Made by a program: the position numbers and the translations under genes. A stretch of 64,000 nucleotides of DNA, from the NCBI RefSeq assembly GCF_008727735.1, contig NZ_CP044227.1, positions 744,001-808,000 of the forward strand. The letters run 5' to 3'. The notes under the pieces were generated by a model that saw only the letters and a program-made list of their open reading frames with translations, made no database searches and was not told where the DNA came from. Below, one piece after another: positions 26,561 to 39,519 of the stretch. Origin of the DNA: Flintibacter sp. KGMB00164 (GTDB lineage Bacteria; Bacillota; Clostridia; Oscillospirales; Oscillospiraceae). Numbering within the stretch: position 1 is the first letter of the stretch; every line of letters starts with the position of its first letter.

Positions 26561-27224
26561 GCTTATACCCCAATCCTCTCACGGTGATGATGTAGCGGGG
26601 ACTCTTGGGATCATCCTCGATTTTGTCCCGCAGCTTGGAGATATGCACCATCATAGTATTGTCATCGCCCTCAAAGTAGTTTCCGATGGCCCCTTCATAG
26701 AGCTGGATCTTGGTGTAAATGCGGCCGGGAGAGCGCATGAGCAGAGCCAGGATCTTATACTCCATGGGAGTGAGGAGAATCTGCTTGCCGTTTTTGGTCA
26801 GCTGGAAGGTGGTGGTATCCAGGGTCAGTTCCCGCACGGTGAGAATATCGCTCCCGCTGCGAGAGGCGCGGCGCAGCTGGGCCTTGACCCGGGCCACGAT
26901 TTCCACAGGGTTAAAGGGCTTGGTGATATAGTCGTCCGCCCCCAGATTCAGGCCCAGGATCTTGTCGTTGTCCTGGCTTTTCGCCGAGAGGATGAGAATG
27001 GGAATATCGCTGAACTTGCGCAGGGCGCGGGTGAGCTCAAAGCCGTTGAGCTGGGGCATCATGATATCCAGAATGGCCATATCCGGGGCCTGTGCCCGGG
27101 CCAGATCCAGAGCCCGTGCGCCGTTGTCTGCCTCCAGGACTCGAAAACCTTCGCCCTCCAGGTAGAGCTTGAGCAGGCCTCGAATATCTGCGTCGTCCTC
27201 TGCAATCAGAATCAAAGGGTTCAT
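26550..27224 (-). CDS. OmpR-family response regulator
   Basis: This 224-aa protein has a receiver with D53 in ILDIMMPQLNGF and Lys in ITKPFNP, then a winged-helix domain ending ITVRGLGYKLEK. The start has AAGGAGG. It is the first gene of a regulator-kinase pair. A TATAAT lies upstream on the minus strand within 27225-27330. The ABC exporter downstream is a candidate target. Confidence 0.94.
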   Translation of the reverse strand: MNPLILIAEDDADIRGLLKLYLEGEGFRVLEADNGARALDLARAQAPDMAILDIMMPQLNGFELTRALRKFSDIPILILSAKSQDNDKILGLNLGADDYITKPFNPVEIVARVKAQLRRASRSGSDILTVRELTLDTTTFQLTKNGKQILLTPMEYKILALLMRSPGRIYTKIQLYEGAIGNYFEGDDNTMMVHISKLRDKIEDDPKSPRYIITVRGLGYKLEK

Positions 27225-27393
27225 CTTGGACGGCCTCCTTTTTATATATGTTTAAGGCCATTATAACAAACTCAAAGGCCTGCGGAAAGCGCGGGCTTAA
27301 AAATTTTCTTGTTCTTAGTAAATCTTAAGAAAATCCAGGGGGAATTTATAGGGGGAGGCGATAGGATAGAAAAAAAGAGAAAGGACAGATGTT

Positions 27394-28137
27394 ATGTTTC
27401 GCCTGCCTCATATTTTGGTGCTGATATCGACCGGCGTGCTGGTCTGCCTTCTGATTACTGCGGCCCGTCGGGCTGGGAGAGAACGGGTACAGGGCTGGCT
27501 GAAGGTGTGCGCAGTGCTTGCGCTGCTGTTTGACCCGGTGTACTGGGTGTGGGAAATGCGGCAGTTTGGTCATATCCAGCCCTCGACCACCCTGCCCCTT
27601 TACCTGTGTTCCCTGTTTTGGATGATGCTGCCTCTGGCGGTCTTCTCCCGCCGGGAGAAGCTGCGGCAGATGGCGGCGGCCAATGTGTGCACCATGGGAG
27701 TCATGGGAGGCGTGCTGGGACTGGTATTCAATGTATACCTCAACCACTATCCGTTTTTCCACTTTGTTCCGGTACGCAGCCTGATTTATCACATTTTGAT
27801 GATTGCGGCAGCGGTGCTGCTGTGGGCCGGTGACGTGTACCGCCCCCAGCCCGGCGACCGGGTGCTCTGTTTTGTTCCGGTGGGCGTACTGGTAGGGGTG
27901 AGTCTGGTATGTAACCGCCTGTTTGGGTGGGACTACTGCTACACAGCCGGAGGAATTGGCACACCCCTGGAGGCGGCAAGCCGTATCATGCCCCGGTGGG
28001 CCTTTCTGTTCGTACTGTACGGCGGACTGTGGCTGGTGATCCAGGCGCTGTTCTACCGCCGGTTTTATACCGATGAAACGGGAAAATTTGAAATCAGAGG
28101 CAAGGGACTGGCCTGGGCCGGATCCTGGCGCAGATAA
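27394..28137 (+). CDS. TIGR02206-like (YwaF-type) membrane protein
   Basis: This 247-aa protein has about six to seven membrane helices. Family marks are TTLPLYLCSLF near residue 65-75, HYPFFHFVPVRSLIYHIL in the middle and a GGIGTPLEAAS loop. The start has AAAGGA 7 nt upstream. The family is of unknown function. It has its own terminator and no clear operon partner. Confidence 0.8.
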   Translation: MFRLPHILVLISTGVLVCLLITAARRAGRERVQGWLKVCAVLALLFDPVYWVWEMRQFGHIQPSTTLPLYLCSLFWMMLPLAVFSRREKLRQMAAANVCTMGVMGGVLGLVFNVYLNHYPFFHFVPVRSLIYHILMIAAAVLLWAGDVYRPQPGDRVLCFVPVGVLVGVSLVCNRLFGWDYCYTAGGIGTPLEAASRIMPRWAFLFVLYGGLWLVIQALFYRRFYTDETGKFEIRGKGLAWAGSWRR

Positions 28138-28139
28138 AG

Positions 28140-28167
28140 AAGAGGCCGCGGAAGCGGCCTCTTTTTT
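28140..28167 (+). terminator. Terminator after the TIGR02206-like gene
   Basis: AAGAGGCCGC-ggaa-GCGGCCTCTT is followed by TTTT. Confidence 0.88.
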
Positions 28168-28229
28168 CATTCCATTGGGACGAAAAATGTGGTAGAATGT
28201 CTGGAAAGCCAAGGGAAGGGAGAAACCCT

Positions 28230-29687
28230 GTGAACAAGACTGTACTCTACCTCATTTATTTCTGCGTCTACTCTGTGGCCCTGCTGCTCATTGGAAAGAG
28301 CAGCCTGCGGGACAACCGGACGGTAGGCAGCTATTTTACTTGTGACCGGAAGGTAAGCCTTCCTCTTTGTATCTGTACCTTTGCGGGGACCTGGCTGTCC
28401 GCCATCACCATTCTCAGCCTGACCGGCGGAGTGTATGAAGACGGCTTGGCAGTGCTGTTTTATTCGGTGGTGCCCTGGTTTTTAGGGGGACTTCTGCTGG
28501 CGGCGGTGAGCCGGCGCCTGTATGCCTGGGACGCCATCACCATTCCGGAAATCTTCCGCAAGCGCTACCAGTCTCCCAAGCTGCAGATGGCCTACGGTAT
28601 CATTTTTATTACCGTCTATGTGTTTTACCTGGTTACCCAGTATAAGGGCTTTGGCATGGTGGCCTCTGCACTGTTTGATATCCCCTATCCCGCTGCAGTG
28701 CTGATGGTCTATCTGTTTATCCTCTACACCACCTTCGGCGGATACCGCTCGGTGGTGCGGACGGATGCGTTTAATCTTACGCTGCTCAGCATTGGACTGT
28801 TTATTCTGTTTTTTACCATTGTAAGCCGCGTGGGAGGCCTGGGTGAGCTATACAGCCAGGCAAAGCAGATTTCCGGTTATGCACATCCCGGGGTGGAATA
28901 TCCCACCCAGACGGGAGAGCTGCTCTCCCTGTTTAACAGTCGCTATACCCCTCTGATCAGTTTGTCCATGTTCTGGGGCTGGGGACTTGGAGTAGCGGCC
29001 AACCCCCAGTATACCATCCGCATGCTGTGCGCCAAAAATGAGAAAACCGCCCGGTGGACGGTGCTGGGTGCGCTGATTTTGCTGGCGGTACTGTACTTTA
29101 CCTTAGTACATATCGGACTGGGAATGCGGGTTCTGGTACCTACGCTGCCCTATGTGAAGTCCTCGGATGAGGTGATCATCCGACTGCTCAACCAAGAGCT
29201 GTACACCGGCTGGAGCGGATTTTTCCTCTTTGCTATTATCGGAGCCTGTGTGTCTACGGCCAACTCTCAGCTACTGCTCATCGCGTCCTCTTTCTCTTAT
29301 GATGTGGTGCGTACTGCCGCGCCCAGACCCATTTCAGAGCAGCGCGTGCTTACGCTGGGACGTTTGGCGGTTTTTGGAGGCGGGACCATCTCTATGCTGA
29401 TGGCCCTTAATCCCCCGGATTTCACCCTGTCCTACGGGGGAGATGTGTGGGGAGCGGTGAGTATTCTGCTCTTCCCGTCTATGTATGGCACCCTCCTTTG
29501 CCGCTGGGTCACCAAGCGGGGCGTATGGGCCTGCATTTTGGTAGGAGCGGCTGCGATTCTGGTGCTCTATCCGCTCTACTATGCCGGCCATCTCGGAATC
29601 CATCCCGCTTTGCCGGGGGTGTTCATCTCCACGGCGGCCATGGCAGTGGTCTCGCTGCTGGACCGTAGAAAGGAGGGAGCACGATGA
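28230..29687 (+). CDS. SSS-family Na+:solute symporter
   Basis: This 485-aa LeuT-fold symporter has about 13 membrane helices. The family marks are TVGSYFTCDRKVSLPLCICT (TM1-2 linker) and a KGFGMVASALFDI stretch in TM5-6. GTG 28230 is chosen for a GGGAG site 6-7 nt upstream. The stop overlaps the next ATG (ATGA), so it is coupled to the NtrB-like kinase. It may import the compound sensed by that kinase or act as part of the sensor; 5-oxoproline or a glutamate-like compound is a candidate from the downstream operon. Confidence 0.9.
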   Translation: MNKTVLYLIYFCVYSVALLLIGKSSLRDNRTVGSYFTCDRKVSLPLCICTFAGTWLSAITILSLTGGVYEDGLAVLFYSVVPWFLGGLLLAAVSRRLYAWDAITIPEIFRKRYQSPKLQMAYGIIFITVYVFYLVTQYKGFGMVASALFDIPYPAAVLMVYLFILYTTFGGYRSVVRTDAFNLTLLSIGLFILFFTIVSRVGGLGELYSQAKQISGYAHPGVEYPTQTGELLSLFNSRYTPLISLSMFWGWGLGVAANPQYTIRMLCAKNEKTARWTVLGALILLAVLYFTLVHIGLGMRVLVPTLPYVKSSDEVIIRLLNQELYTGWSGFFLFAIIGACVSTANSQLLLIASSFSYDVVRTAAPRPISEQRVLTLGRLAVFGGGTISMLMALNPPDFTLSYGGDVWGAVSILLFPSMYGTLLCRWVTKRGVWACILVGAAAILVLYPLYYAGHLGIHPALPGVFISTAAMAVVSLLDRRKEGAR

Positions 29688-31342
29688 AGATACGGCGGCC
29701 CAGAATGGATATTGAAAACAAGATCCTGATTCCCTTCGTGTGCATCAGTCTGGCTACCGTGATCTGCTTTTGCGCTATCTTGTATTTTACGGAATACCGG
29801 GTCAAGGTAGCCGCCGAGCGGGAGAACGCCAGTACCCTGATCGGGTATATCCAGGCTGATTTGGAACTGGAGGATTACCGCCAGGACCCGAAAAAGCTGC
29901 TGGCTAAGTACCGCAATCACTACACGGGAGATAGCCTGTTTATCTATGATGAGCAGGGAGAACTTCTGCTGGGAAAGCCTGGCGTGGATGCTGAGGACCT
30001 GGAGGTACTGGCCCAGGCCACCGATCCCCAGCTGGGGTGGGAGATATCATACCGCCTGGATAACAGTGCCCTGCAGGAGCGGTTCATTGAGGAACAGAAA
30101 TATATGATCCTGGCGGCGGTAGCCATGCTGGTGATCATTGTCCAGGCCAGCGTACTCATTGCTCACAACATCTCTGACCCCATCCGCCGTCTCAGTGAGG
30201 TCTGCCAGAGCGTCAGCGAGAGTCCGGAACAGGAAGAACTGGATATGGAGGAGTATCTGGGCAAGGCGGACGAGGTGGGCCAGCTGGCCCGGGCCTTTGC
30301 CCGGATGATGGAGAGCATCCGAACCTATACCGGAGAACTGATTCGGGTCAAAACCCTGAATGAGAGTATCGTGGAAAACCTGCCCTTCGGCGTGGTGGCT
30401 TACGATCAGGAAGGAAAGGCCTTCTGTGTTAATGCCAGTGCCTCGGCCATGTTGGGACGGCAGGAGGAGCGGGACGAACAGGGGCGTACCCTGGAGATGC
30501 TGCTGGGGCAGATCATGCGCCGGGAGGACGTGTTGCCCGATCCTGCCCATCTGACGGAGCCCACGGGAAAAAGCCGGGATTACGAATTCGGCGTATGGCA
30601 GCTGCGGGAGCCGGACGGCTCCCGGTGGGGCGTGCTGTGTACCATCGACGACGTTACTTATAAAAAGAGAATGGAGGAGCGCTCCAGCGAGGAGGAAAAG
30701 CTGGCCTACACTGGCAAGCTGGCCGCCGATGTGGCCCATGAGATCCGCAACCCTCTGGCGGGTATTCGGGCAGGCATCCAGGTGGTTAGCCGCAAGCTGA
30801 CCCAGGAGCGGGATCAGAAGCTGTGTGAGGGCATGGTGCGGGAGGTAGACCGGGTCAACCTGCTCATCGAGAACCTTCTGAACCTGTCCCGGCGGCGGGA
30901 GAGCCAAAAGACCACGGTCAGCCTCAACGCGCTGTTTGATGAGCTGCAGCTGCTCTATTTTAAGGTGGCGGAGAATAAGGGGATCGCCTTTACCGCCCAG
31001 GTGGAGGGCAGCCTGTGGCTGTACGCAGACGAGGGGGAACTGCGCCAGGTACTGATCAACCTGATCAACAACGCGGTAAAGGCCATGCCGGACGGCGGGC
31101 AGCTGGAGATCCGGGCAGAGAAGGAGCCGGAGGGTGTGTGCCTGACGGTGACCGATACCGGCGTAGGTATGGGACCGGAGAAATTGGAGCAGGTGCTGCA
31201 TGGGGCCGGGACCGGCGGCCTTGGCCTGTCCATTGTGCGGCGGCTCCTGGGAGAAAACGGAGGACAGCTCTCCATGGAGAGCGGGCGTGGGGAAGGTACC
31301 CGGGCACGGATTGCCTTTCCCGGCAAAGGAGGAGAAGCATGA
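29684..31342 (+). CDS. NtrB-like sensor histidine kinase with PAS domain
   Basis: This 552-aa protein has TM1 at ~18-42, an extracytoplasmic sensor, TM2 at ~143-165, then HAMP and a PAS domain (~225-330). HisKA has H352 in VAHEIRNPLAGI, and HATPase_c has NLINNAVKAMPDGG and GTGGLGLSIVRRLLG. ATGA overlaps join it to the transporter before and the activator after. It should phosphorylate the sigma-54 activator. The direct coupling to a symporter suggests sensing of the transported solute. Confidence 0.93.
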   Translation: MKIRRPRMDIENKILIPFVCISLATVICFCAILYFTEYRVKVAAERENASTLIGYIQADLELEDYRQDPKKLLAKYRNHYTGDSLFIYDEQGELLLGKPGVDAEDLEVLAQATDPQLGWEISYRLDNSALQERFIEEQKYMILAAVAMLVIIVQASVLIAHNISDPIRRLSEVCQSVSESPEQEELDMEEYLGKADEVGQLARAFARMMESIRTYTGELIRVKTLNESIVENLPFGVVAYDQEGKAFCVNASASAMLGRQEERDEQGRTLEMLLGQIMRREDVLPDPAHLTEPTGKSRDYEFGVWQLREPDGSRWGVLCTIDDVTYKKRMEERSSEEEKLAYTGKLAADVAHEIRNPLAGIRAGIQVVSRKLTQERDQKLCEGMVREVDRVNLLIENLLNLSRRRESQKTTVSLNALFDELQLLYFKVAENKGIAFTAQVEGSLWLYADEGELRQVLINLINNAVKAMPDGGQLEIRAEKEPEGVCLTVTDTGVGMGPEKLEQVLHGAGTGGLGLSIVRRLLGENGGQLSMESGRGEGTRARIAFPGKGGEA

Positions 31343-32730
31343 GGGCGAAGGTATTAGTGGTAGACGACGAGTTCCTGATCCGCATGTCGTTGGAGAGCGG
31401 CTTGTCTGATCTGGGCTACCATGTACGTACCGCAGAGAGTATCCGGGAAGGGACGGAGCTGGCGGAGACGTTCCGGCCTGATGTGGTACTGCTGGATAAC
31501 CGTCTGGGCCAGGAACTGGGACTGGACCACATCGAGGATTTTAAAAAGGTGGATGAGGACATCCAGATCATCATGATCACCGCTTACGGCTCTGTGTCCC
31601 AGGCGGTAGAGGCCATGAAGCGGGGGGCTTGCCACTACATTCAAAAGCCCTTCGATCTGGAAGAGGTGGACCTGATCATCCGCCGCAACCTGGATCAGCT
31701 CAAGCGGCGGCGCAGCCTGGAACTGATGCGCCAGCGTCCCCGACAGATCGTGGGAGAGAGCCAGGCCATCCAGCGGATCTGCCGCAATGTGGACATTCTG
31801 GCCCAGAACGACAACGTGGATCTGCTCATCTGCGGCGAGACAGGAACAGGTAAAGGCGTGGTGGTCAATGCCATCCATGACAGCAGTCCCCGCCGGGATA
31901 CGCCGCTGGTCAAAATAAACTGCGGCGCCATCCCCGAGACTTTGCTGGAGTCGGAACTCTTCGGCTATGAGAAAGGTGCCTTCACCGGCGCCAACAAGGC
32001 GAAAAAGGGCCTGATGGAGCTGGCCGACGGGGGTACCGTGTTCCTGGATGAGATCGGTGAACTGCCTTTGTCCATGCAGGCCAAGCTGCTTACCTTCCTG
32101 GAGGACCGGCGCTTTAAGCGGGTAGGCGGCCTGCGGGATATCGAAGTCAATGTGCGTATCATTGCCGCCACCAACCGGGACCTGGAGGAAGAAGTGGAGA
32201 AGGGAACCTTCCGGGAAGACCTGTTCTACCGCCTAAACGTGATGCAGATCCGTATTCCCCCTCTGCGGGAGCGGCGAGAGGATATTCCGGTGTTGGCCCG
32301 GTTCTACCTGGAGCACTTCAATCGGAAATTCAACAAGCACCTCAAGGACATCGACCCTGCCTTTTTGCAGGAGATGGAGGGGTACTACTGGAAGGGCAAT
32401 GTGCGGGAGCTGCGCAACGTAATGGAGCGGTGCGTGCTGTTCAGCCGGGGAGAGCTTCTTACCGGCGAAGAGACCGGTCTGGAGCCCCGTCGGGAGGAAC
32501 GGAAGGGAGACAGCGGCCTGAGCTACCCCATGAAGGATCTGAAGCAGGGCAGCATCGATCTGAAAAAAGAGGTGGATGCCTTTGAGCGCACCTACATTGA
32601 CCGGGCCATGGAGCTGGCGGGCGGAAACAGCAGCCGTGCAGCTCAGCTGCTGGGATGTACCCGCTTTACCCTCAAGCGCCGTTTGGAGCAGGGCAATGAG
32701 AGTGCGAAAGAGAACAATGTGCAGAAATGA
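31339..32730 (+). CDS. NtrC-family sigma-54-dependent response regulator
   Basis: This 463-aa activator has a receiver with D53 in VLLDNRLGQELG and an AAA+ domain with Walker A GETGTGKG (166-173). The sigma-54 contact loop GAFTGA is at 213-218, with a GGTVFLDEIGEL Walker B region. A Fis-type HTH follows at the end (NSSRAAQLLGCTRFTLKRRL). The intact GAFTGA means it needs sigma-54. ATG 31339 has AGGAG upstream. About 150 bp after its stop is a near-consensus sigma-54 promoter, making the pxp operon its likely target. Confidence 0.95.
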   Translation: MRAKVLVVDDEFLIRMSLESGLSDLGYHVRTAESIREGTELAETFRPDVVLLDNRLGQELGLDHIEDFKKVDEDIQIIMITAYGSVSQAVEAMKRGACHYIQKPFDLEEVDLIIRRNLDQLKRRRSLELMRQRPRQIVGESQAIQRICRNVDILAQNDNVDLLICGETGTGKGVVVNAIHDSSPRRDTPLVKINCGAIPETLLESELFGYEKGAFTGANKAKKGLMELADGGTVFLDEIGELPLSMQAKLLTFLEDRRFKRVGGLRDIEVNVRIIAATNRDLEEEVEKGTFREDLFYRLNVMQIRIPPLRERREDIPVLARFYLEHFNRKFNKHLKDIDPAFLQEMEGYYWKGNVRELRNVMERCVLFSRGELLTGEETGLEPRREERKGDSGLSYPMKDLKQGSIDLKKEVDAFERTYIDRAMELAGGNSSRAAQLLGCTRFTLKRRLEQGNESAKENNVQK

Positions 32731-32732
32731 AC

Positions 32733-32762
32733 GGGAGAGTGTGCAAATTCGCACACTCTCCC
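32733..32762. promoter_or_regulatory. 12-bp-arm palindrome, candidate activator site and/or weak terminator
   Basis: GGGAGAGTGTGC-aaattc-GCACACTCTCCC lies directly after the activator gene. Only five T residues follow, after a 6-nt gap, so it is a weak terminator. It is centred about 125 bp upstream of the sigma-54 -24/-12 elements, the usual distance for an NtrC-type upstream activator site. Confidence 0.6.
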
Positions 32763-32883
32763 GCTGCTTTTTGAGAACGAATCAGGGGGAACAGGAAGAA
32801 AAATACAAAGAAAAAGTTTTAAAATGGAAAGAAAAAGCGGAAGAATTTTACTCATTAAAGAAAAATGCAAAAAAGAATCAAAG

Positions 32884-32900
32884 TTGGCACGCAGCTTGCA
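32884..32900 (+). promoter_or_regulatory. Sigma-54 promoter of the pxp operon
   Basis: TTGGCACGCAGCTTGCA matches the -24/-12 consensus, with GG (32886-32887) and GC (32898-32899) exactly 12 bp apart. It lies 42 bp before the pxpA start. The gene upstream encodes a sigma-54 activator. Confidence 0.9.
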
Positions 32901-32942
32901 TTATTATAATTAACTGGAATGAAACTTCAAGGAGGTTTATTT

Positions 32943-33710
32943 ATGTACAAGGTAGATCTGAACAGCGACCTGGGCGAGAGCTTTGGCGCATACACCATCG
33001 GTCTGGATGAGCAGGTTATCCAGCATGTGTCCTCTGCCAACGTGGCCTGCGGCTATCACGCCGGCGACCCCCTGGTGATGGACAAGACTGTGGCCGCCGC
33101 CAAGGCTGCCGGTGTAGCGGTAGGCGCGCATCCCGGCTATCCTGACCTGATGGGCTTTGGCCGCCGGAACATGGTGTGCTCCCCCAAGGAGGTCAAGGCT
33201 TACATCCAGTATCAGCTGGGCGCTCTGATGGCTTTCACTGCCGCCCACGGCGTGAAGCTGCAGCACTGCAAGCCCCACGGTTCCCTGTACAACATGGCCG
33301 GCAAGGACATGGATCTGGCCATGGCCATTGCTGAGGGCATCTACAGCGTGGACAAGGACGTGATCCTGCTGGGTCTGGCGGGCAGCAAGATGCTGGAGGC
33401 CGGCAAGCAGGTTGGTCTGCGGGTAGCCAGCGAGGTCTTTGCTGACCGTGCCTATCAGGCCGACGGCTCCCTGGTGCCCCGCAGCAAGCCCGGCGCTGTG
33501 ATCCACGACAAGGACGAGGCCATTGCCCGTACCATCCGTATGGTCACCGAGGGCAAGGTTACCGCCATCACCGGCGAGGAGGTCTCCATCGACGCCCACT
33601 CCATCTGCGTACACGGCGACAACCCCTCCGCAGTAGAGTTTGTCAAGAACATCCGCGCCAAGCTGGAAGCTGAGGGCGTGACCATCGCTCCCATTGCGGA
33701 TATTGTGTGA
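32943..33710 (+). CDS. pxpA: 5-oxoprolinase subunit PxpA (LamB/YcsF family)
   Basis: This 255-aa protein begins with the family signature [12 protein letters not shown]. It continues with [29 protein letters not shown] and KPHGSLYN, all highly conserved in YcsF. With PxpB and PxpC it forms the ATP-dependent bacterial 5-oxoprolinase that opens 5-oxo-L-proline to glutamate. ATG 32943 lies behind AAGGAGG. It is the first gene of the sigma-54-driven operon. Full length. Confidence 0.96.
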
Positions 33711-33762
33711 TCCGCTTTGTATAGGAGAGGAGACTCCCAAAACGATTTAGGAGGTCAATGTT

Positions 33763-35028
33763 ATGAGTAATCAACCCAACACTGCCGCCGCAAAACCCAG
33801 CCGGTCTGTTCTGTTCGGCGCCGCCTTCCTGATGGCTACCTCGGCCATCGGTCCCGGCTTCCTGACTCAGACCTCTACCTTTACCGCGCAGCACGGCGCG
33901 GCCCTGGCTCTGGTCATCGTGCTGGCCATTATCATGGATATGACCGCTCAGATGAACATCTGGTCCGTAGTTACCGTCTCCAAGATGCGTGCTCAGGATG
34001 TAGCCAACAAGCTGCTGCCTGGTTTGGGCGTTATCATCGCCATCCTGGTTGCCATCGGCGGCCTGGCCTTTAACGTAGGTAACGTGGGCGGCGTGGCCCT
34101 GGGCTTCAACGCCATGATCGGTCTGGACCAGAAGGTCGGCGCTGTGGTGGCCGGCTGCCTGGGTATCATTATCTTCATCAACAAGAACGCCAAGACCATC
34201 ATGGACAAGGTGGCCACCATTCTGGCTGCTGTTATTCTGGTTACCGTTCTGGTGGTTGCCATCATCTCCGAGCCCCCTCTGGGCGAGGTCGGCAAGGGCC
34301 TGGTGGACTTCCAGTACCTGCTGGATCCGAAGACCAATATGTTCACCGCTCTGACCACCCTGCTGGGCGGCTCCTGCGGCGGCTACATCGCCTTCTCCGG
34401 CGCTCACCGTCTGCTGGACGCCGGCATCTCCGGTCCCGAGAACATCGGCCATGTGCGTAAGAGTGTGCTCCAGGGCTGCGGCACCTCCGGCGCTGTGCGT
34501 ATCCTGCTGTTCCTGGCTGTGCTGGGCACCTGCATGAGCGGCACCCAGTGGCTGGCTGAGAATGCCAAGATCATCACCGACGCTGCCAACGGCGGCAACC
34601 CCGCTGCTGAGGCTTTCCGTCTGGCTGCCGGTGATCTGGGCTACCGTCTGTTCGGCCTGTGCCTGTTCTCTGCCGGCGTCTCCTCCGTGGTGGGCGCGGC
34701 TTACACCTCCGTGTCCTTCCTGAAGACCCTGCACCCCTTCATTGCAAAGTATGAGCGCCAGTTTGTGGTTGGCTTCATCGCCTTCTCCACCCTGATGATG
34801 GTCATCGTGGGCAACGCTGCTGCCCTGCTCATCATCGCCGGCGCCTTCAACGGCCTGATCCTGCCTGTGACTCTGGGCGTGATGCTCTTTGCCGGTCACA
34901 AGACCCGCATCGTGGGCACCGAGTACAAGCACCCCATGTGGCTGACCGTCCTGGGTGCCATCGTGGTCGTGATCGCTCTGTACTCCGGCATCCAGGCTGT
35001 CCCCGGCATCCTGAAGCTGTTTGCTTGA
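33763..35028 (+). CDS. NRAMP-related transporter, YcsG-like
   Basis: This 421-aa integral membrane protein has about 11 helices and the NRAMP-fold TM1 motif AIGPGFLTQTSTF. The divalent-metal DPGN-type TM1 sequence of true NRAMP is replaced, so metal transport is unlikely. B. subtilis ycsG lies beside ycsF, ycsI and kipIA in the same way. It probably carries 5-oxoproline or a related acid into the cell for PxpABC; this rests on context. AGGAGG lies 7 nt upstream of the start. Confidence 0.88.
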   Translation: MSNQPNTAAAKPSRSVLFGAAFLMATSAIGPGFLTQTSTFTAQHGAALALVIVLAIIMDMTAQMNIWSVVTVSKMRAQDVANKLLPGLGVIIAILVAIGGLAFNVGNVGGVALGFNAMIGLDQKVGAVVAGCLGIIIFINKNAKTIMDKVATILAAVILVTVLVVAIISEPPLGEVGKGLVDFQYLLDPKTNMFTALTTLLGGSCGGYIAFSGAHRLLDAGISGPENIGHVRKSVLQGCGTSGAVRILLFLAVLGTCMSGTQWLAENAKIITDAANGGNPAAEAFRLAAGDLGYRLFGLCLFSAGVSSVVGAAYTSVSFLKTLHPFIAKYERQFVVGFIAFSTLMMVIVGNAAALLIIAGAFNGLILPVTLGVMLFAGHKTRIVGTEYKHPMWLTVLGAIVVVIALYSGIQAVPGILKLFA

Positions 35029-35038
35029 TTGACGACAC

Positions 35039-35068
35039 TTGGCACGCCCGCTTAGGCGGGCGTGCCAA
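35039..35068 (+). other. Perfect GC-rich hairpin between ycsG-like gene and pxpB
   Basis: TTGGCACGCCCGC pairs fully with GCGGGCGTGCCAA around a 4-nt loop. No T run follows, so it is not a normal terminator. It may set mRNA processing or the ratio of transporter to enzyme messages. Confidence 0.7.
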
Positions 35069-35089
35069 TCACACAGAAAGGAGCCTGCT

Positions 35090-35827
35090 ATGGCAGACGT
35101 AAAATTCCTCCTTACCGGGGACACCTCCCTGTCGGTGGAGTTCGGCAACGAGATCAGCACTGAAATCAACGCGAAGATCCGTGCCTTCAACATTGCCTTG
35201 GAGAACAGCAAGATCCCCGGCATCGTGGAGACAGTACCTACCTACCGCTCTCTTATGGTCCACTATGATCCCAGCGTTATCCGCTATGAGCCTCTGGTGA
35301 AGCGTATGAAGGGCCTGCTGGGTCAGCTGGACAAGATCCAGATTCCCCCCAGCGACGTGCTGGAGATCCCCGTGCTCTACGGCGGCGAGGCCGGTCCTGA
35401 CCTGGACTTTGTGGCCGAGCACGCAGGCAAGACCCCGGAGGAGGTTATCAAGATCCACACCTCCACCGAGTACCTCATCTATATGCTGGGCTTCACCCCC
35501 GGCTTTACCTATCTGGGCGGCATGGACGAGTCCATCGCAACCCCCCGCCTCAAGCAGCCCCGGGTGAAGATTCCCGCCGGCTCCGTGGGCATTGCCGGCT
35601 CTCAGACCGGCGTGTATCCTATCGACTCCCCGGGCGGCTGGCAGCTCATTGGTCTGACTCCGGTGCGGATGTACGATCCCGACCGGGCCGAGCCCATCCT
35701 GCCTAAGGCCGGCGAGTATATCAAGTTCTATTCCATTACCAAGGCGGAGTTTGACGAGATCGCCGCCCAGGAGGCCGCCGGCACCTATGTGTGCAAGCGT
35801 CATCCCAGAAAGGAGGGGGCGAAATGA
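35090..35827 (+). CDS. pxpB: 5-oxoprolinase subunit PxpB (KipI-like)
   Basis: This 245-aa protein of the cyclophilin-fold KipI/allophanate-hydrolase subunit 1 family has EIPVLYGGEAGPDLDFVAEH, MLGFTPGFTYLGGMDE, and PAGSVGIAGSQTGVYP followed by SPGGWQLIG. It is a subunit of 5-oxoprolinase. ATG 35090 has AAAGGAG; the longer frame runs across the hairpin. Its stop overlaps the pxpC start (ATGA). The B. subtilis homologue was first described as a sporulation-kinase inhibitor, but the pxpABC context favours 5-oxoprolinase here. Confidence 0.95.
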   Translation: MADVKFLLTGDTSLSVEFGNEISTEINAKIRAFNIALENSKIPGIVETVPTYRSLMVHYDPSVIRYEPLVKRMKGLLGQLDKIQIPPSDVLEIPVLYGGEAGPDLDFVAEHAGKTPEEVIKIHTSTEYLIYMLGFTPGFTYLGGMDESIATPRLKQPRVKIPAGSVGIAGSQTGVYPIDSPGGWQLIGLTPVRMYDPDRAEPILPKAGEYIKFYSITKAEFDEIAAQEAAGTYVCKRHPRKEGAK

Positions 35828-36765
35828 GCATTACCGTATTGAACCCCGGTCTGCTGACCACGGTACAGGATATGGGCCGTGTGGGCTATCAGCAGTTTGG
35901 CGTGTCGGTGTCCGGCGTCATGGACCCCCGCTCTGCCGCCATTGCCAACATCCTGGTGGGTAACCCCGAGGATGAGGCGGTGCTAGAGTGCACCATGATG
36001 GGCCCCCAGCTCCTCTTTAACCAGGCGGAGACCATCGCCATCACCGGCGGCGATCTGATGCCCACCCTGGACGGTCAGCCCATGCCCACCTACCGGGCGG
36101 TCACTGTCCAGGCCGGTCAGGTGCTGCGTTTCCAGGCCCCCAAGACGGGCTGCCGCTGCTTTATTGCCTTCACCGGCGGATTGGATATCCCCGAGGTAAT
36201 GGGCAGCCGCTCTACTTACATGAAGGCCAAGATCGGCGGATATCAGGGCCGCAAGCTCCAGAAGGACGACGTGATCGGCTTCCGGGCTCCCGGTGTACCC
36301 AAGAACCTGAATATCCGCTGCATGAGCCCCGAGTTTATCCCCCGCCCGGTGTACACCCTGCGGGTAGTAATGGGACCTCAGGACGACGCCTTTACCCAGC
36401 AGGGTCTGGACACCTTCCTGAGCGAGACCTACTCGGTGACCAACGAGTTTGACCGCATGGGCTGCCGTCTGGATGGCCCCGTCATCCAGCACGTCACCGA
36501 CGGCAACATTATTTCCGACGGCATCGCCTTCGGCGCCATCCAGGTTCCCTCTGAGGGCAAGCCCATCATCATGCTGGGCGACCGTCAGACCACCGGCGGC
36601 TATACCAAGATTGCCAATGTCATCTCTGCCGACTTCCGGCTGCTGGGCCAGCTGAAGGCAGGCGACAAGGTAAAATTTGAAAAGGTATCCATCGGACAGG
36701 CCCAGGATGCTCTGCTCAATCAGCGGGCTGCTCTGAAGACCCTGCGTCACGCTCTGGACGGCTGA
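35824..36765 (+). CDS. pxpC: 5-oxoprolinase subunit PxpC (KipA-like)
   Basis: This 313-aa biotin-dependent carboxyltransferase-like protein (allophanate-hydrolase subunit 2/KipA family) has early GLLTTVQDMGRVGYQQFGV. It continues with ECTMMGPQLLF, ITGGDLMPTL, FTGGLDIPEVMGSRST and the late GDRQTTGGYTKIANVI. It pairs with PxpB in the enzyme and is translationally coupled to it. Full length. Confidence 0.95.
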   Translation: MSITVLNPGLLTTVQDMGRVGYQQFGVSVSGVMDPRSAAIANILVGNPEDEAVLECTMMGPQLLFNQAETIAITGGDLMPTLDGQPMPTYRAVTVQAGQVLRFQAPKTGCRCFIAFTGGLDIPEVMGSRSTYMKAKIGGYQGRKLQKDDVIGFRAPGVPKNLNIRCMSPEFIPRPVYTLRVVMGPQDDAFTQQGLDTFLSETYSVTNEFDRMGCRLDGPVIQHVTDGNIISDGIAFGAIQVPSEGKPIIMLGDRQTTGGYTKIANVISADFRLLGQLKAGDKVKFEKVSIGQAQDALLNQRAALKTLRHALDG

Positions 36766-36790
36766 TACCTGTAAATAAGGAGGAGTTCCC

Positions 36791-37612
36791 ATGGCTTTTG
36801 ATATTACCCCTTATATCGACAAGTCCCCCGCTGAGGTCCGCGGCCTGATCCGCCAGGGCGTCATCGACTTCCCCACTGCCGGTATGTGCCGGGGCTATGC
36901 CCAGGCCAATCTGGTGATCCTCCCCCCGGAGTACGCCGCTGACTTTGAGGAGTTTACCAAGAAGAACCCTTTCCCCTGTCCGGTGCTGGAGATCATCAAG
37001 GGTACCCCTGAGACCCACGCCATGGGCGAGGGAGGCAACATCTGCTCGGATATCCCCCGCTACCGCATCTATGAAAACGGTGTGTTTACCAAGGAGATCA
37101 CCGACGCCTCCGAGTATTGGAAAGAGGGTTATGTGGGCTTCCTCATCGGCTGTTCCTTCTCCTTTGAGGAGGCGCTGATGGCTGCCGGAATTCCCGTGCG
37201 CCACATTGAGCAGGGCTGCAACGTGCCCATGTTCAAGACCAACATCCAGACCGTCAAGGCTGGTCCCTTCGAAGGACCCATGGTGTGCTCCATGCGTCCC
37301 ATGACTCCGGAGCAGGCCCAGAAGGCCTACGACATCACCGTGAAGATGCCCAACGTCCACGGCGCTCCTGTCCAGATCGGTGATCCGGAGAAGGTGGGTG
37401 TCAAGGACGTGATGAAGCCTGACTACGGTGATCCTGTGGAGATCCGGGAGGGCGAGGTGCCTGTGTTCTGGCCCTGCGGTGTCACTCCCCAGGCGGCGGT
37501 GGAGAATGCCAAGCCCCCCATTGTCATTACCCACGCCCCCGGCCATATGTTTATCACCGATATCCTGAACACCGAGCTCAACGACTATCTGGAAGCCCAG
37601 AAGAATAAGTAA
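36791..37612 (+). CDS. DUF1445 protein (YcsI / D-glutamate-cyclase-like)
   Basis: This 273-aa protein of the DUF1445 hydro-lyase-like family has TAGMCRGYAQANLVILP, PRYRIYENG, GFLIGCSFSFEEAL, PMVCSMRPM and a late ITHAPGHMFITDI. The mitochondrial relative DGLUCY converts D-glutamate to 5-oxo-D-proline, so this gene may feed or interconvert 5-oxoproline in the same operon. The start has AAGGAGG 7 nt upstream. Last gene of the pxp operon. Confidence 0.9.
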   Translation: MAFDITPYIDKSPAEVRGLIRQGVIDFPTAGMCRGYAQANLVILPPEYAADFEEFTKKNPFPCPVLEIIKGTPETHAMGEGGNICSDIPRYRIYENGVFTKEITDASEYWKEGYVGFLIGCSFSFEEALMAAGIPVRHIEQGCNVPMFKTNIQTVKAGPFEGPMVCSMRPMTPEQAQKAYDITVKMPNVHGAPVQIGDPEKVGVKDVMKPDYGDPVEIREGEVPVFWPCGVTPQAAVENAKPPIVITHAPGHMFITDILNTELNDYLEAQKNK

Positions 37613-37618
37613 GCACAG

Positions 37619-37653
37619 AAAATGCCCGCGGCAGACGCCGCGGGCATTTTTAT
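37619..37653. terminator. Bidirectional terminator
   Basis: AAAATGCCCGCGGC-aga-GCCGCGGGCATTTTT ends the pxp operon and the convergent SpoU methyltransferase gene. Confidence 0.92.
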
Positions 37654-37660
37654 TGTCCGT

Positions 37661-38497
37661 TTAGTTTTTCTCTCTGGCACGCAGCTGCCAGAAGATGACC
37701 GCTCCGGCAGCGGCCACATTGAGGGAATCCACGCCGTGGTACATAGGAATCCGGGCAGTGTAATCACAGTGGGCCATGGTTTCCTCACACAGGCCGTTTC
37801 CCTCCGAGCCCAGAACGATGGCAAGCTTTTCCGCATTGGCCAGGACCGGGTCTTCAATGGAGATGGAGTTGTCCGTCAGTGCCATGGCTGCGGTGGAAAA
37901 GCCCAGGGAGCGCAGGGTGGCGATCCCGGGCTGGGGCCACTGAAAGGCATCCCCATGCAGCCAGGTCCAGGGAATCTGGAAGACAGTGCCCATGCTCACC
38001 CGCACCGAGCGGCGATAGAAAGGGTCGCAGCAGGAGGAAGAAACCAGGATTCCGTCCATCCCCAGAGCGGCGGCAGAGCGAAAGATAGCGCCGATGTTGG
38101 TGGAGTCGGTAATGTTCTCCAATACCACCAGACGCCGGGCACTGCGGCAGATCTCTTCGGGACTGGGAAGGGGAGGACGGCGCATGGCGCATAACATTCC
38201 CCGGGTCAGCTCATAGCCGGTCAGACGGGCCAATACATCCCGCGGGGCGGTATAGATGGGGATGTTGTCCCACGGAGGGGGGAGAAGCTGTGTCAGTGCG
38301 GGAAGGTGTCTGGCTTCTGTCAAGCAGGAGAGAGGCTGGCAGCCTGCTTTGAGGGCACAGGAGATGACCTTGCCGCTCTCAGCGATGAAGATTCCCTTCT
38401 CGGGATCCCGCTGACTGCGCAGCTGGGCGTGGGTGAGCTGGGTATAGGGGGCAAGCTCCGGGGCGGAGAGGTCGCTGATTTCTATGATATGAGCCAT
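37661..38497 (-). CDS. SpoU/TrmH-family RNA 2'-O-methyltransferase
   Basis: This 278-aa protein has an N-terminal substrate-binding domain and a SPOUT domain with NSTNIGAIFRSAAALGMD-type motif 1 (written here as DSTNIGAIFRSA), LVLGSEGNGL motif 2 and the C-terminal RIPMYHGVDSLNVAAAGAV motif 3. It should methylate a ribose in rRNA or tRNA; the site cannot be told. The start has AGGAGG. Single gene. Confidence 0.92.
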   Translation of the reverse strand: MAHIIEISDLSAPELAPYTQLTHAQLRSQRDPEKGIFIAESGKVISCALKAGCQPLSCLTEARHLPALTQLLPPPWDNIPIYTAPRDVLARLTGYELTRGMLCAMRRPPLPSPEEICRSARRLVVLENITDSTNIGAIFRSAAALGMDGILVSSSCCDPFYRRSVRVSMGTVFQIPWTWLHGDAFQWPQPGIATLRSLGFSTAAMALTDNSISIEDPVLANAEKLAIVLGSEGNGLCEETMAHCDYTARIPMYHGVDSLNVAAAGAVIFWQLRAREKN

Positions 38498-38554
38498 ATG
38501 GGCCTCCTGAGTGGTTCAAGATGTTCTTATTATAACACAACGGTGCAGAGCAGG

Positions 38555-38586
38555 CAAAAAAAGACGGCGGGATGTCCGCCGTCTTT
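38555..38586 (-). terminator. Hairpin between the lipid kinase and SpoU genes
   Basis: On the minus strand AAAGACGGCGG-acatc-CCGCCGTCTTTTTTT lies 13 bp after the lipid kinase stop, a standard terminator. Confidence 0.9.
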
Positions 38587-38598
38587 GAGAAGAAAACC

Positions 38599-39519
38599 TT
38601 ATTCGTTGACCGCCTTGTCGTGGGACGGCCCCTGAATGATGTGAAGGGCCTGGCGGTGGTTGCGTACCACGTTGACCTCCTGGCTGCCCCCGTATTCCCC
38701 GTCGATGGTCCAGGGGATGGGCTTATCGCAGGTGAATTTCAGGTCTGAGGCGTGGAAGGAGATCAAAGCGCTGCCGGTGGTGGCAGGAGCCTGCCCCAGC
38801 AGAGATTGAAGCGCGGCACCCACTTCGAAAATGTTCACCGGCTTTTTCACCAGAATGACCTCGAAGAGTCCGTCGTCCAGCTCTACCCGGTCGGTGGGCA
38901 GGTTTTTCATGCCGCCCACGGAATAGGTGTTGCACACCATGCCGTAGAAGAAGTCGTCCTCCAGGGTGTTGCCGTCATACTCTACCTTGATGTGGTAGGG
39001 GGCGATGGAGGGGATGGAGGCGATGCCTGCCATGACATAGGCCAGATGCCCGAACGTGTTTTTCAGATCCTGGGGCGTATCATAGGCCACCTCAGTAAAG
39101 GCGCCAAAGGCGGCGACATAGACAAAGGGGCGCTCGTTCAAGGTGCCGATGTCCCAGGCCAGAGGCGGGATATCGCTGCCGGCCAAGGCGGCTGCCTTTT
39201 TATAGACCCGAGGAATATGGAGGGTGGTGGCGCAGTCGTTGGTGGAGCCGGCAGGAATATAGCCCAGAACGGGCGGGGACTCCAGCGCCATCAGCCCGGC
39301 GGCCGTTTCACTCAGGGTGCCGTCGCCTCCGCAGCAGACGACCCGGTCAAACTGAGAGCCCAGTTCCCGGACGATACGGGTGGCGTCTCCGGGCTGCTGG
39401 GTGGGGTAGGCGGTGACCAGCCAGCCCTCTTTGGTGAGGGTGTCCAGGATGGGAGACAGGTGGCCTGCCGCGCCTCCCTTGCCGGAAGTGGGATTATAGA
39501 GAAACAGAAGGTGATTCAT
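38599..39519 (-). CDS. Diacylglycerol/lipid kinase (DagK/YegS family)
   Basis: This 306-aa soluble kinase has NPTSGKGGA at the start, the catalytic GGDGTLSETAAGL motif, PAGSTNDCATTL and a C-terminal beta-sandwich ending in WTIDGEYGGSQEV. It phosphorylates diacylglycerol or a related membrane lipid. ATG 39519 is preferred over 39528 because GAGGT lies 9 nt upstream of it. It lies alone, divergent from an SDR gene. Confidence 0.93.
   Translation of the reverse strand: MNHLLFLYNPTSGKGGAAGHLSPILDTLTKEGWLVTAYPTQQPGDATRIVRELGSQFDRVVCCGGDGTLSETAAGLMALESPPVLGYIPAGSTNDCATTLHIPRVYKKAAALAGSDIPPLAWDIGTLNERPFVYVAAFGAFTEVAYDTPQDLKNTFGHLAYVMAGIASIPSIAPYHIKVEYDGNTLEDDFFYGMVCNTYSVGGMKNLPTDRVELDDGLFEVILVKKPVNIFEVGAALQSLLGQAPATTGSALISFHASDLKFTCDKPIPWTIDGEYGGSQEVNVVRNHRQALHIIQGPSHDKAVNE

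Follow-up and report, generated by a model that had tools for sequence, protein, structure and literature searches.

The 5-oxoprolinase (pxp) operon of Flintibacter sp. KGMB00164 is very likely driven by sigma-54 together with an NtrC-family activator encoded just upstream, as judged from gene content, a consensus promoter, enhancer-like sites, and their co-inheritance among relatives. 5-oxoproline is a waste product that forms spontaneously in all cells, and the pxp genes return it to glutamate. The locus lies within a 64,000-nucleotide stretch of the genome (hereafter the window), with all of its genes on the forward strand.

The regulatory operon encodes an SSS (SLC5) sodium/solute symporter (28230..29687, GTG start; PF00474, 132.8 bits), proposed here as a co-sensor, a sensor histidine kinase (29684..31342), and the activator (31339..32730). 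It is followed by pxpA, encoding 5-oxoprolinase subunit A of the LamB/YcsF type (32943..33710; PF03746, 350.5 bits; NF003814, 387.9 against a cut-off of 226), ycsG/pxpT, encoding an Nramp-type transporter that is a probable 5-oxoproline importer (33763..35028; PF01566), pxpB for subunit B (35090..35827; TIGR00370, 226.2 against 145.55, with the profile scan started from 35084), pxpC for subunit C (35824..36765; TIGR00724, 315.3 against 230.2), and a gene for a D-glutamate cyclase family (DUF1445) protein (36791..37612; PF07286, 234.4 bits), the family to which ycsI of Bacillus subtilis also belongs. This content and order had been given in the initial annotation, as had ATGA overlaps among the first three genes. 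Such overlaps were found between the symporter and kinase genes (29684-29687), the kinase and regulator genes (31339-31342), and also pxpB and pxpC (35824-35827). The longest open reading frame of pxpA begins at an earlier ATG (32919), but the start at 32943 was favored by an AGGAGG site and by being the one that most relatives conserve. The window PxpA scored below the cut-offs of three narrower NCBIfam PxpA equivalogs, PxpC below that of the stricter equivalog NF045499 (252.8 against 500), and the transporter matched the general Nramp Pfam family but not NCBIfam MntH (42.6 bits against 430). The 5-oxoprolinase function of PxpABC is predicted from the gene set and order.

The activator contains a receiver (PF00072), an AAA+ domain (PF00158) whose GAFTGA loop is intact, as first reported, and a Fis-type HTH (PF02954), the composition of a response-regulator-type bacterial enhancer-binding protein. 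Receiver residues D12, D13, D56, T84, and K106 (numbered from codon 31330) were invariant in eight regulators, while the first G of GAFTGA was replaced by N in six distant homologs, L128 also having S for A. The kinase comprises TM1, an ectodomain of ~100 aa, TM2, HAMP, PAS (scoring just below the Pfam cut-off), HisKA, and HATPase_c, and the phospho-acceptor H352 was invariant in 14 sequences. The label NtrBC previously attached to the pair was not borne out: the activator scored 404.1 on the NCBIfam NR(I)/NtrC model TIGR01818 (cut-off 558.6) and 421.1 bits on the AtoC model (cut-off 714), and the kinase 218 on the AtoS model (cut-off 646). Given the NtrC and AtoC scores, the activator is an NtrC-family protein that is neither NtrC nor AtoC, and the kinase is of the HAMP/PAS membrane type.

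The -24/-12 promoter TTGGCACGCAGCTTGCA (32884..32900, forward strand) was located where it had been claimed, with exact GG-N10-GC spacing and 42 bp between it and the pxpA ATG at 32943, and a transcript start would be expected near 32911. The genome encodes one sigma-54, which together with these boxes is what a sigma-54-dependent promoter calls for; it also contains ten sigma-54 activator-domain matches that exceed the Pfam cut-off, with strong scores (213-242 bits) for four and scores of at most 59 for the others. The pattern TGGCACN5TTGCW matched the window exactly once against 0.12 expected, with 12 of 100 shuffles also containing one, and at up to three mismatches the 276 matches fell below the 317 expected. 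Judged on the window by itself, this match carries no overwhelming weight, being only moderately unlikely by chance, and it rises above chance because it is conserved in relatives. Across the 2.92-Mb genome, TTGGCACGN4TTGCW had three exact sites and eight with at most one mismatch (reversed pattern, one), the two other exact sites flanking another sigma-54 activator gene. Another cluster of pxp genes in this genome (G000 C1, ~422.6 kb) had no -24/-12 element with at most one mismatch on the strand scanned.

Upstream of the promoter are two palindromes with the probable enhancer consensus TGTGC-N6-GCACA. The proximal site TGTGCAAATTCGCACA (32740..32755) lies 144 bp before the promoter, with a palindrome of this kind in 13 of 13 genus members, and the weaker distal site TGTGCAGAAATGAACG (32718..32733), 22 bp away, overlaps the activator stop codon. 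A second-best site at 22 bp was present in 11 of the 13, the partner being missing or weak in G201 and G207. Conserved upstream palindromes of this kind are expected of an enhancer-binding protein, and binding is predicted. The proximal site also forms the apical stem of an intrinsic terminator of the regulatory operon (32732..32773, forward strand; hairpin 32732-32763), which ranked first of 25 in a terminator scan of 27000-38600, with a fold of -27.7 kcal/mol and a z of -6.9. Across relatives the outer arm pairs covary while the inner half-sites are fixed; the stem is thus kept by compensatory changes and is followed by a T-run, which in the window begins a few bases past the stem; termination is predicted. 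Neither the palindromes nor the terminator containing the second of them had been described in the initial annotation.

The regulator has 12 further orthologs in the genus, and it and the symporter (orthologs at E <= 1e-60) occurred in the same 13 of 64 congeneric genomes. Among 23 close pxpA orthologs, the promoter was found 56-59 bp before pxpA in all 13 genomes with the regulator (12 perfect, one with one mismatch) and in none of the 10 without it, where the best candidates had three or four mismatches in 500 bases. This comparison, which had been suggested as a check on the promoter, excluded more distant pxpA copies, at or below 65% identity. Four of these that were scanned had no promoter (best, 3-4 mismatches), and in a fifth, in G216, the start was not found; this count covered copies whose locus had been fetched, the short pieces in G220, G222, and G226 being set aside. 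A matrix of the enhancer-like site gave scores of 19.6-25.4 in the 13 genomes from which it was itself built and at most 13.9 in the 10 regulator-less ones. The sigma-54 gene was not detected in four of these 10, nor in one of the 13 (G252, 77% complete). On the pxpABC tree the regulator trait was scattered, with six changes, at least three of which were forced by strong branches. As the regulator, sites, and promoter are adjacent, one insertion or deletion could move them all, and co-occurrence alone is no proof of use; the co-inheritance nonetheless supports the proposal that the activator acts on pxp via sigma-54.

Cassettes of regulator homologs were also found in several lineages across Clostridia. 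The four top-scoring homologs outside the genus (44-47%), identified by a regulator protein search in which the promoter was not used, all belonged to symporter-kinase-regulator sets followed by a -24/-12 element with one mismatch and a pxp operon. The pxp gene order was shuffled in two of these class-level cassettes, with pxpA, pxpC, and a YcsG/Nramp gene present in all four and a pxpB homolog labeled in three (not in G281). In L108, the promoter and site precede a pxpA divergent from the regulator operon. When the genus-built matrix was applied to 20 other regions, it identified sites in 19 (p <= 0.03), and for 14 of these none of 200 shuffles did as well; matches were weak in L114, L155, and L157, and L144, with 35 bases to scan, had none. 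The second-best match fell outside 19-23 bp in five of the 19 (L095, L097, L108, L109, and L154). A related symporter-kinase-regulator set in G392 precedes a different permease gene, for which no Pfam or NCBIfam match was found. A genome scan of all species for the promoter plus a PxpA N-terminus gave 55 hits, of which 17 without PxpA were dropped from the counts and ~16 may be chance hits by a rough estimate made by hand. The scan also picked up ten proteobacterial loci (Klebsiella, Achromobacter, Paraburkholderia, and others) that contained a PxpA homolog and no regulator homolog in the fetched stretch. In most of them pxpA is divergent from genes that, judged by eye, resemble those of ABC transporters; in L123 and L103 an inverted repeat encloses the element, which may therefore be an operator. 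These loci were not counted as the same system.

The symporter and kinase had originally been proposed as joint sensors. The part of this proposal concerning the symporter is retained in a reworded form, as membership in the regulatory module: among the 10 genomes without the regulator, YcsG/PxpT accompanied pxp in 8 while the symporter ortholog was absent from all, and an operon with its own importer from which the symporter disappears along with the regulator places the symporter in that module. In a class search it adjoined five of five regulators of the clade outside the genus, and none of 17 other regulator homologs within the stretches fetched. Since the symporter stays with the regulator clade while two kinases have no extracellular domain, it is more probably part of the sensor. 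The inducer could instead be bound by the kinase extracellular domain, with the symporter only an accessory uptake system made along with the regulator. Such an arrangement appears rather unlikely: the ectodomain is present in 12 of 14 aligned kinases and was modeled in the window kinase as helices with a small sheet, but it was the least conserved of seven kinase segments in 13 of 13 comparisons and is absent from the L132 and L108 kinases, both of which keep the symporter, regulator, promoter, and site. Among four distant kinases, identity was 9-20% in the ectodomain against 42-46% in TM1 and 36-48% in TM2, although the PAS region, at 15-21%, scored little higher than the ectodomain. The AF2 model of the kinase was of moderate quality (pLDDT 80, pTM 0.33, 14 sequences) and aligned with solved structures mostly over the catalytic part. 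The symporter model (pLDDT 91) had an SLC5 fold, and its structural matches were general SLC5 members (SGLT, CHT1, and SiaT) that gave no substrate clue. For the symporter as co-sensor, we tentatively suggest a "split transceptor", a specific model whose chances we put a little below even, in which a membrane kinase would have a separate SSS symporter as its obligatory receptor, the symporter would relay the signal of 5-oxoproline to a regulator of the sigma-54 type, the kinase could do without its ectodomain, the target enhancer would be the tip of the regulator's terminator, and the triad could be re-aimed, as in G392. In the transporter-coupled kinases BceAB-BceS and DctA-DcuS, a transporter supplies sensing to its kinase through the membrane; these partners come from other transporter families and are not known to use sigma-54 activators of this type.

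The signal is probably 5-oxoproline. That the real substrate and signal are D-glutamate or 5-oxo-D-proline, and not 5-oxo-L-proline, seems unlikely: the operon closes with a gene for D-glutamate cyclase, and in G281 this gene comes first after the promoter, but it was not seen in the fetched stretches of G527 or G314, whereas pxpA, pxpC, and the YcsG/Nramp gene recur in every class-level cassette. A report of general nitrogen or glutamate/glutamine status, as the initial annotation had also envisaged, is quite improbable and found no support in this analysis. The pxp genes of Bacillus respond to TnrA, and GlnR sites precede them in several Bacillus species (PMC3412718, PMC10448178); however, the present pair does not qualify as NtrB/NtrC under curated cut-offs and the module is linked to pxp and not to nitrogen genes. 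In addition, none of the seven other genomic -24/-12 sites with at most one mismatch had an exact TGTGC-N6-GCACA within 6 kb, which, considering exact matches, points to a single target. The loose palindrome (at most one mismatch) had 74 matches per strand genome-wide against 22 for a backward control, too many for further targets to be defined. Finally, a non-functional -24/-12 match, with pxp transcribed from a sigma-70 promoter instead, is highly improbable: although adjacent elements could move by linkage and the match in the window alone is only moderately unlikely, a sigma-70 scan of 27000-38600 gave five matches against 5.1 expected, all on the reverse strand, and the -24 and -12 boxes are kept across 13 genomes while the intervening bases vary.

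In the proposed circuit, the symporter-kinase-regulator operon, before which the same sigma-70 scan found no promoter, would presumably be made from a promoter of its own and end at the hairpin terminator. An inducer, most likely 5-oxoproline or its D form, would be reported by the symporter, via the membrane helices, to the kinase, which would phosphorylate the regulator. The phosphorylated regulator would bind the TGTGC-N6-GCACA palindromes, usually a pair spaced by two helical turns, of which the proximal member is the terminator hairpin tip in its DNA form, and would contact sigma-54 polymerase at the -24/-12 element. Control would thus be positive, with pxpA, ycsG, pxpB, pxpC, and the D-glutamate cyclase gene switched on and 5-oxoproline taken up and turned into glutamate.

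Each part belongs to a known kind, and their combination was not found among the best-ranked open-licence papers listed by literature searches, in agreement with the earlier remark that no description of such control was known for pxp genes. CbrA/CbrB of Pseudomonas likewise combines an SSS/SLC5 domain, a PAS kinase, and a sigma-54 interaction domain in CbrB, and serves amino-acid use (PMC7918813). Like CrbS/CrbR and RpuS/RpuR, it is an SLC5-STAC histidine kinase system. In contrast, the symporter here is encoded separately, by a gene joined to that of the kinase through an ATGA overlap; the kinase carries two TM helices of its own plus HAMP, STAC was not among the domains reported by a Pfam scan, and a single neighboring operon is the target. 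The ycsFGI-kipIAR operon of B. subtilis contains the same catabolic genes (pxpA, ycsG, ycsI, pxpB, and pxpC) and is controlled by TnrA, KipR, CcpA, AhrC, and MntR; the sections of PMC10448178 and PMC3412718 on pxp regulation do not mention sigma-54. The pxpTABC/PxpR system of Corynebacterium glutamicum similarly places a YcsG-type transporter and PxpABC under a dedicated local regulator, but PxpR is a GntR repressor that itself binds 5-oxoproline (PMC13274462). The same 2026 paper calls the regulation of bacterial 5-oxoproline metabolism unstudied, although the Bacillus promoter work exists. Among the sigma-54 regulons that Nie et al. (2019; PMC6615313) described in clostridia, activators likewise mostly neighbor their target operon, and most palindromic sites lie 100-250 bp ahead of the promoter, as here; only ~10% of those activators have a receiver domain, the main text contains no oxoprolinase, pyroglutamate, or YcsF, and the regulon table is without pxp.

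The proposed circuit recurs in several lineages of Clostridia and is complete and testable: its promoter is defined, and enhancer-like sites and candidate sensors have been identified. It would lengthen by one the list of operons known to be under sigma-54 in this class. Because the well-studied CbrA has symporter and kinase in one chain (PMC7918813), the separate genes would also allow the passage of information from a symporter to a kinase to be studied in a natural experiment.

In the window, the genes for an SSS symporter (28230-29687), a histidine kinase (29684-31342), and an NtrC-family response regulator (31339-32730) precede pxpA, ycsG/pxpT, pxpB, pxpC, and a D-glutamate cyclase gene, in that order (32943-37612), all on the forward strand. 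ATGA overlaps were observed between the symporter and kinase genes, the kinase and regulator genes, and pxpB and pxpC. The initial annotation had claimed such a transporter-kinase-activator triad followed by pxp genes, and the gene calls and family matches bore this out. The interval between the two gene sets contains a hairpin at 32732-32763 and, at 32884-32900, a consensus -24/-12 element, hereafter the promoter. The 2.92-Mb source genome encodes a single sigma-54, with four strong and six weak matches to the activator domain. Three exact matches to the strict promoter were found genome-wide, one at pxpA and two beside another activator gene. Since the chance expectation of a match within the window alone was 0.12, the case for the promoter rests on comparison.

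The other three strong activator genes of the source genome (G000, contig C1) were near 318 kb, 294-298 kb, and 2089 kb (loci L187, L188, and L189), with a Na+/H+ antiporter, alanine-dehydrogenase-like and glutamate-symporter-type genes, and an amidohydrolase as the respective neighbors, and a -24/-12 site was present no more than about 4 kb from each. The same genome also carries another pxpB-pxpC-pxpA cluster, diverged from the first (PxpA identity 57%), at C1:422568-425122 (locus L186, 4569-7123), where a -24/-12 element was not found on the strand of the cluster.

A regulator orthologue was found in 13 of 64 congeneric genomes, including the source, with identities of 72-94% in the other 12; weaker matches, mostly at 50% identity or below, occurred in additional congeneric genomes. 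The symporter orthologue (E <= 1e-60; 63-87% identity) was present in the identical 13 genomes, and the kinase gene adjoined the regulator and symporter genes in all of them. PxpA orthologues at 80% identity or above were found in 23 genomes, 13 with the regulator and 10 without. Conservation of the promoter before pxpA in relatives had been named as a check in the initial annotation. Among these genomes, the promoter was located 56-59 bp upstream of pxpA in all 13 regulator-bearing genomes (12 perfect matches, and one mismatch in G254) versus none of the 10 regulator-less genomes, where the best match within 500 bases had three or four mismatches. A sigma-54 gene was present in six of the regulator-less genomes and not detected in the other four, and among the regulator-bearing genomes it was not detected only in G252, which is 77% complete.

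On the pxpABC tree, presence of the regulator required six changes, at least three of them forced by strong branches, and was hardly clustered, as 76 of 500 shuffles were equally low. The cassette was therefore gained or lost several times, always along with the promoter. Because the parts of the cassette are adjacent, a single event may move all of them, which limits the argument from co-inheritance. In genome G236 (C114:3653-5010), the regulator gene is broken across two frames while the promoter and sites are still present, reflecting either an assembly error or recent decay. In the regulator-less G128 (L176), a gene for a large SBP-GGDEF-EAL protein precedes pxpA, and G235 (L177) has a similar open reading frame at the same position; a sigma-54 gene was not detected in either genome.

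Alignment of the 13 upstream regions revealed a near-invariant palindrome, TGTGC-N6-GCACA, 118 to 187 bp upstream of the promoter, with a weaker second site exactly 22 bp from the first in all except G201 and G207. A matrix of the site scored 19.6-25.4 in these 13 training regions and did not exceed 13.9 in any of the 10 regions lacking the regulator. Of 20 other regions, 19 contained a site at p <= 0.03, the weak ones in L114, L155, and L157 included, and 14 of these sites exceeded all of 200 shuffles; no site was found in L144, where only 35 bases could be scanned. Among the 19 longer regions, six had the second-best site at a distance of 22 bp from the best one, and eight more had it at 19-23 bp, in some cases with a low score; in the other five it lay elsewhere.

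The palindrome forms the apex of the hairpin downstream of the regulator gene. This hairpin ranked first among 25 terminator matches in the region (8.3 expected), with a fold of -27.7 kcal/mol (z -6.9). Across 13 sequences, pairing at the eight outer positions was retained in 94% of cells, and seven of these pairs showed two-sided changes, whereas of the five inner pairs four were invariant; slid controls came nowhere near this pattern. Pairing is therefore what is conserved in the outer arms, and sequence in the inner part, and the hairpin is read as a predicted terminator whose tip doubles as a putative enhancer.

A scan of 84,980 species genomes with the promoter plus the PxpA start, the result of which presupposes the promoter, yielded 55 loci, 38 of them with a PxpA homologue. 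The regulator adjoined in 26 of the 38, of which 12 came from the rest of the genus and 14 from outside it, including Anaerovirgula, Natronincola, Schnuerera, Anaerosolibacter, Acidaminobacter, and Dysosmobacter. Of the remaining 12, ten were proteobacterial, and L109 and L144 run out too near an edge to judge. In L101, L103, L111, L119, L120, L123, L136, L138, and L143, a -24/-12-like element precedes the start of a proteobacterial pxpA by 52-67 bp, with no regulator homologue in the fetched stretches; in L123 and L103, the element falls within an inverted repeat.

Because the first scan presupposes the promoter, 391 genomes of the class were also searched with the regulator protein alone, and 15, including the source, matched at E <= 1e-95. 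The four best matches outside the genus (44-47% identity) all belonged to complete symporter-kinase-regulator cassettes before pxp genes, each having a -24/-12 element with one mismatch; the pxp gene order was shuffled in G527 and G281. At L108, pxpA diverges from the regulator operon and still has a -24/-12 element (one mismatch) and a palindromic site.

A tree of 49 regulators placed those linked to pxp in one group together with a single further regulator (L169, genome G392); support for the group was 94/91, slightly below the strong-support mark of the tree tool, and the pxp label required two changes. A symporter stood beside all five class-search regulators of this group (the four pxp cassettes plus G392) and, within the fetched stretches, beside none of the 17 others. 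The G392 triad (L194, G392:C30, 346-6747), kin of the pxp triad, precedes a -24/-12-like element, CTGGCATAACTCTTGCT, and a gene for a 480-aa permease-like protein with no match in Pfam or NCBIfam; the TGTGC-N6-GCACA-type palindrome was not found there. This triad suggests that such systems can serve other substrates. With the kinase divided into seven segments, the ectodomain showed the lowest conservation in each of 13 comparisons, and among distant homologues the PAS region was nearly as variable. The kinases of L132 and L108 have no ectodomain, and the symporter is retained at both. The simplest reading of these patterns is that the symporter would act as a receptor or co-receptor.

Comparison established the gene set, promoter, sites, predicted terminator, and their co-inheritance. 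In the proposed mechanism, 5-oxoproline would act on the symporter, the kinase would phosphorylate the regulator, and the regulator would activate the sigma-54 polymerase at pxpA. The D form is a second candidate signal because the operon includes a D-glutamate cyclase gene. Work on Corynebacterium makes YcsG the likely 5-oxoproline importer (PMC13274462), but a Bacillus study gives it a role in Mn2+ import (PMC10448178).

Sigma-54 or two-component control of pxp or oxoproline genes was described in none of the open-licence literature matches listed, consistent with the remark in the initial annotation that it was aware of no such description for these genes. It was likewise absent from a study of clostridial sigma-54 regulons (PMC6615313, main text), and from the consulted portions of further sigma-54 papers and of the C. 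glutamicum pxp paper (PMC13274462). The parts of the circuit are all of known kinds, and it is their combination that appears to be new.
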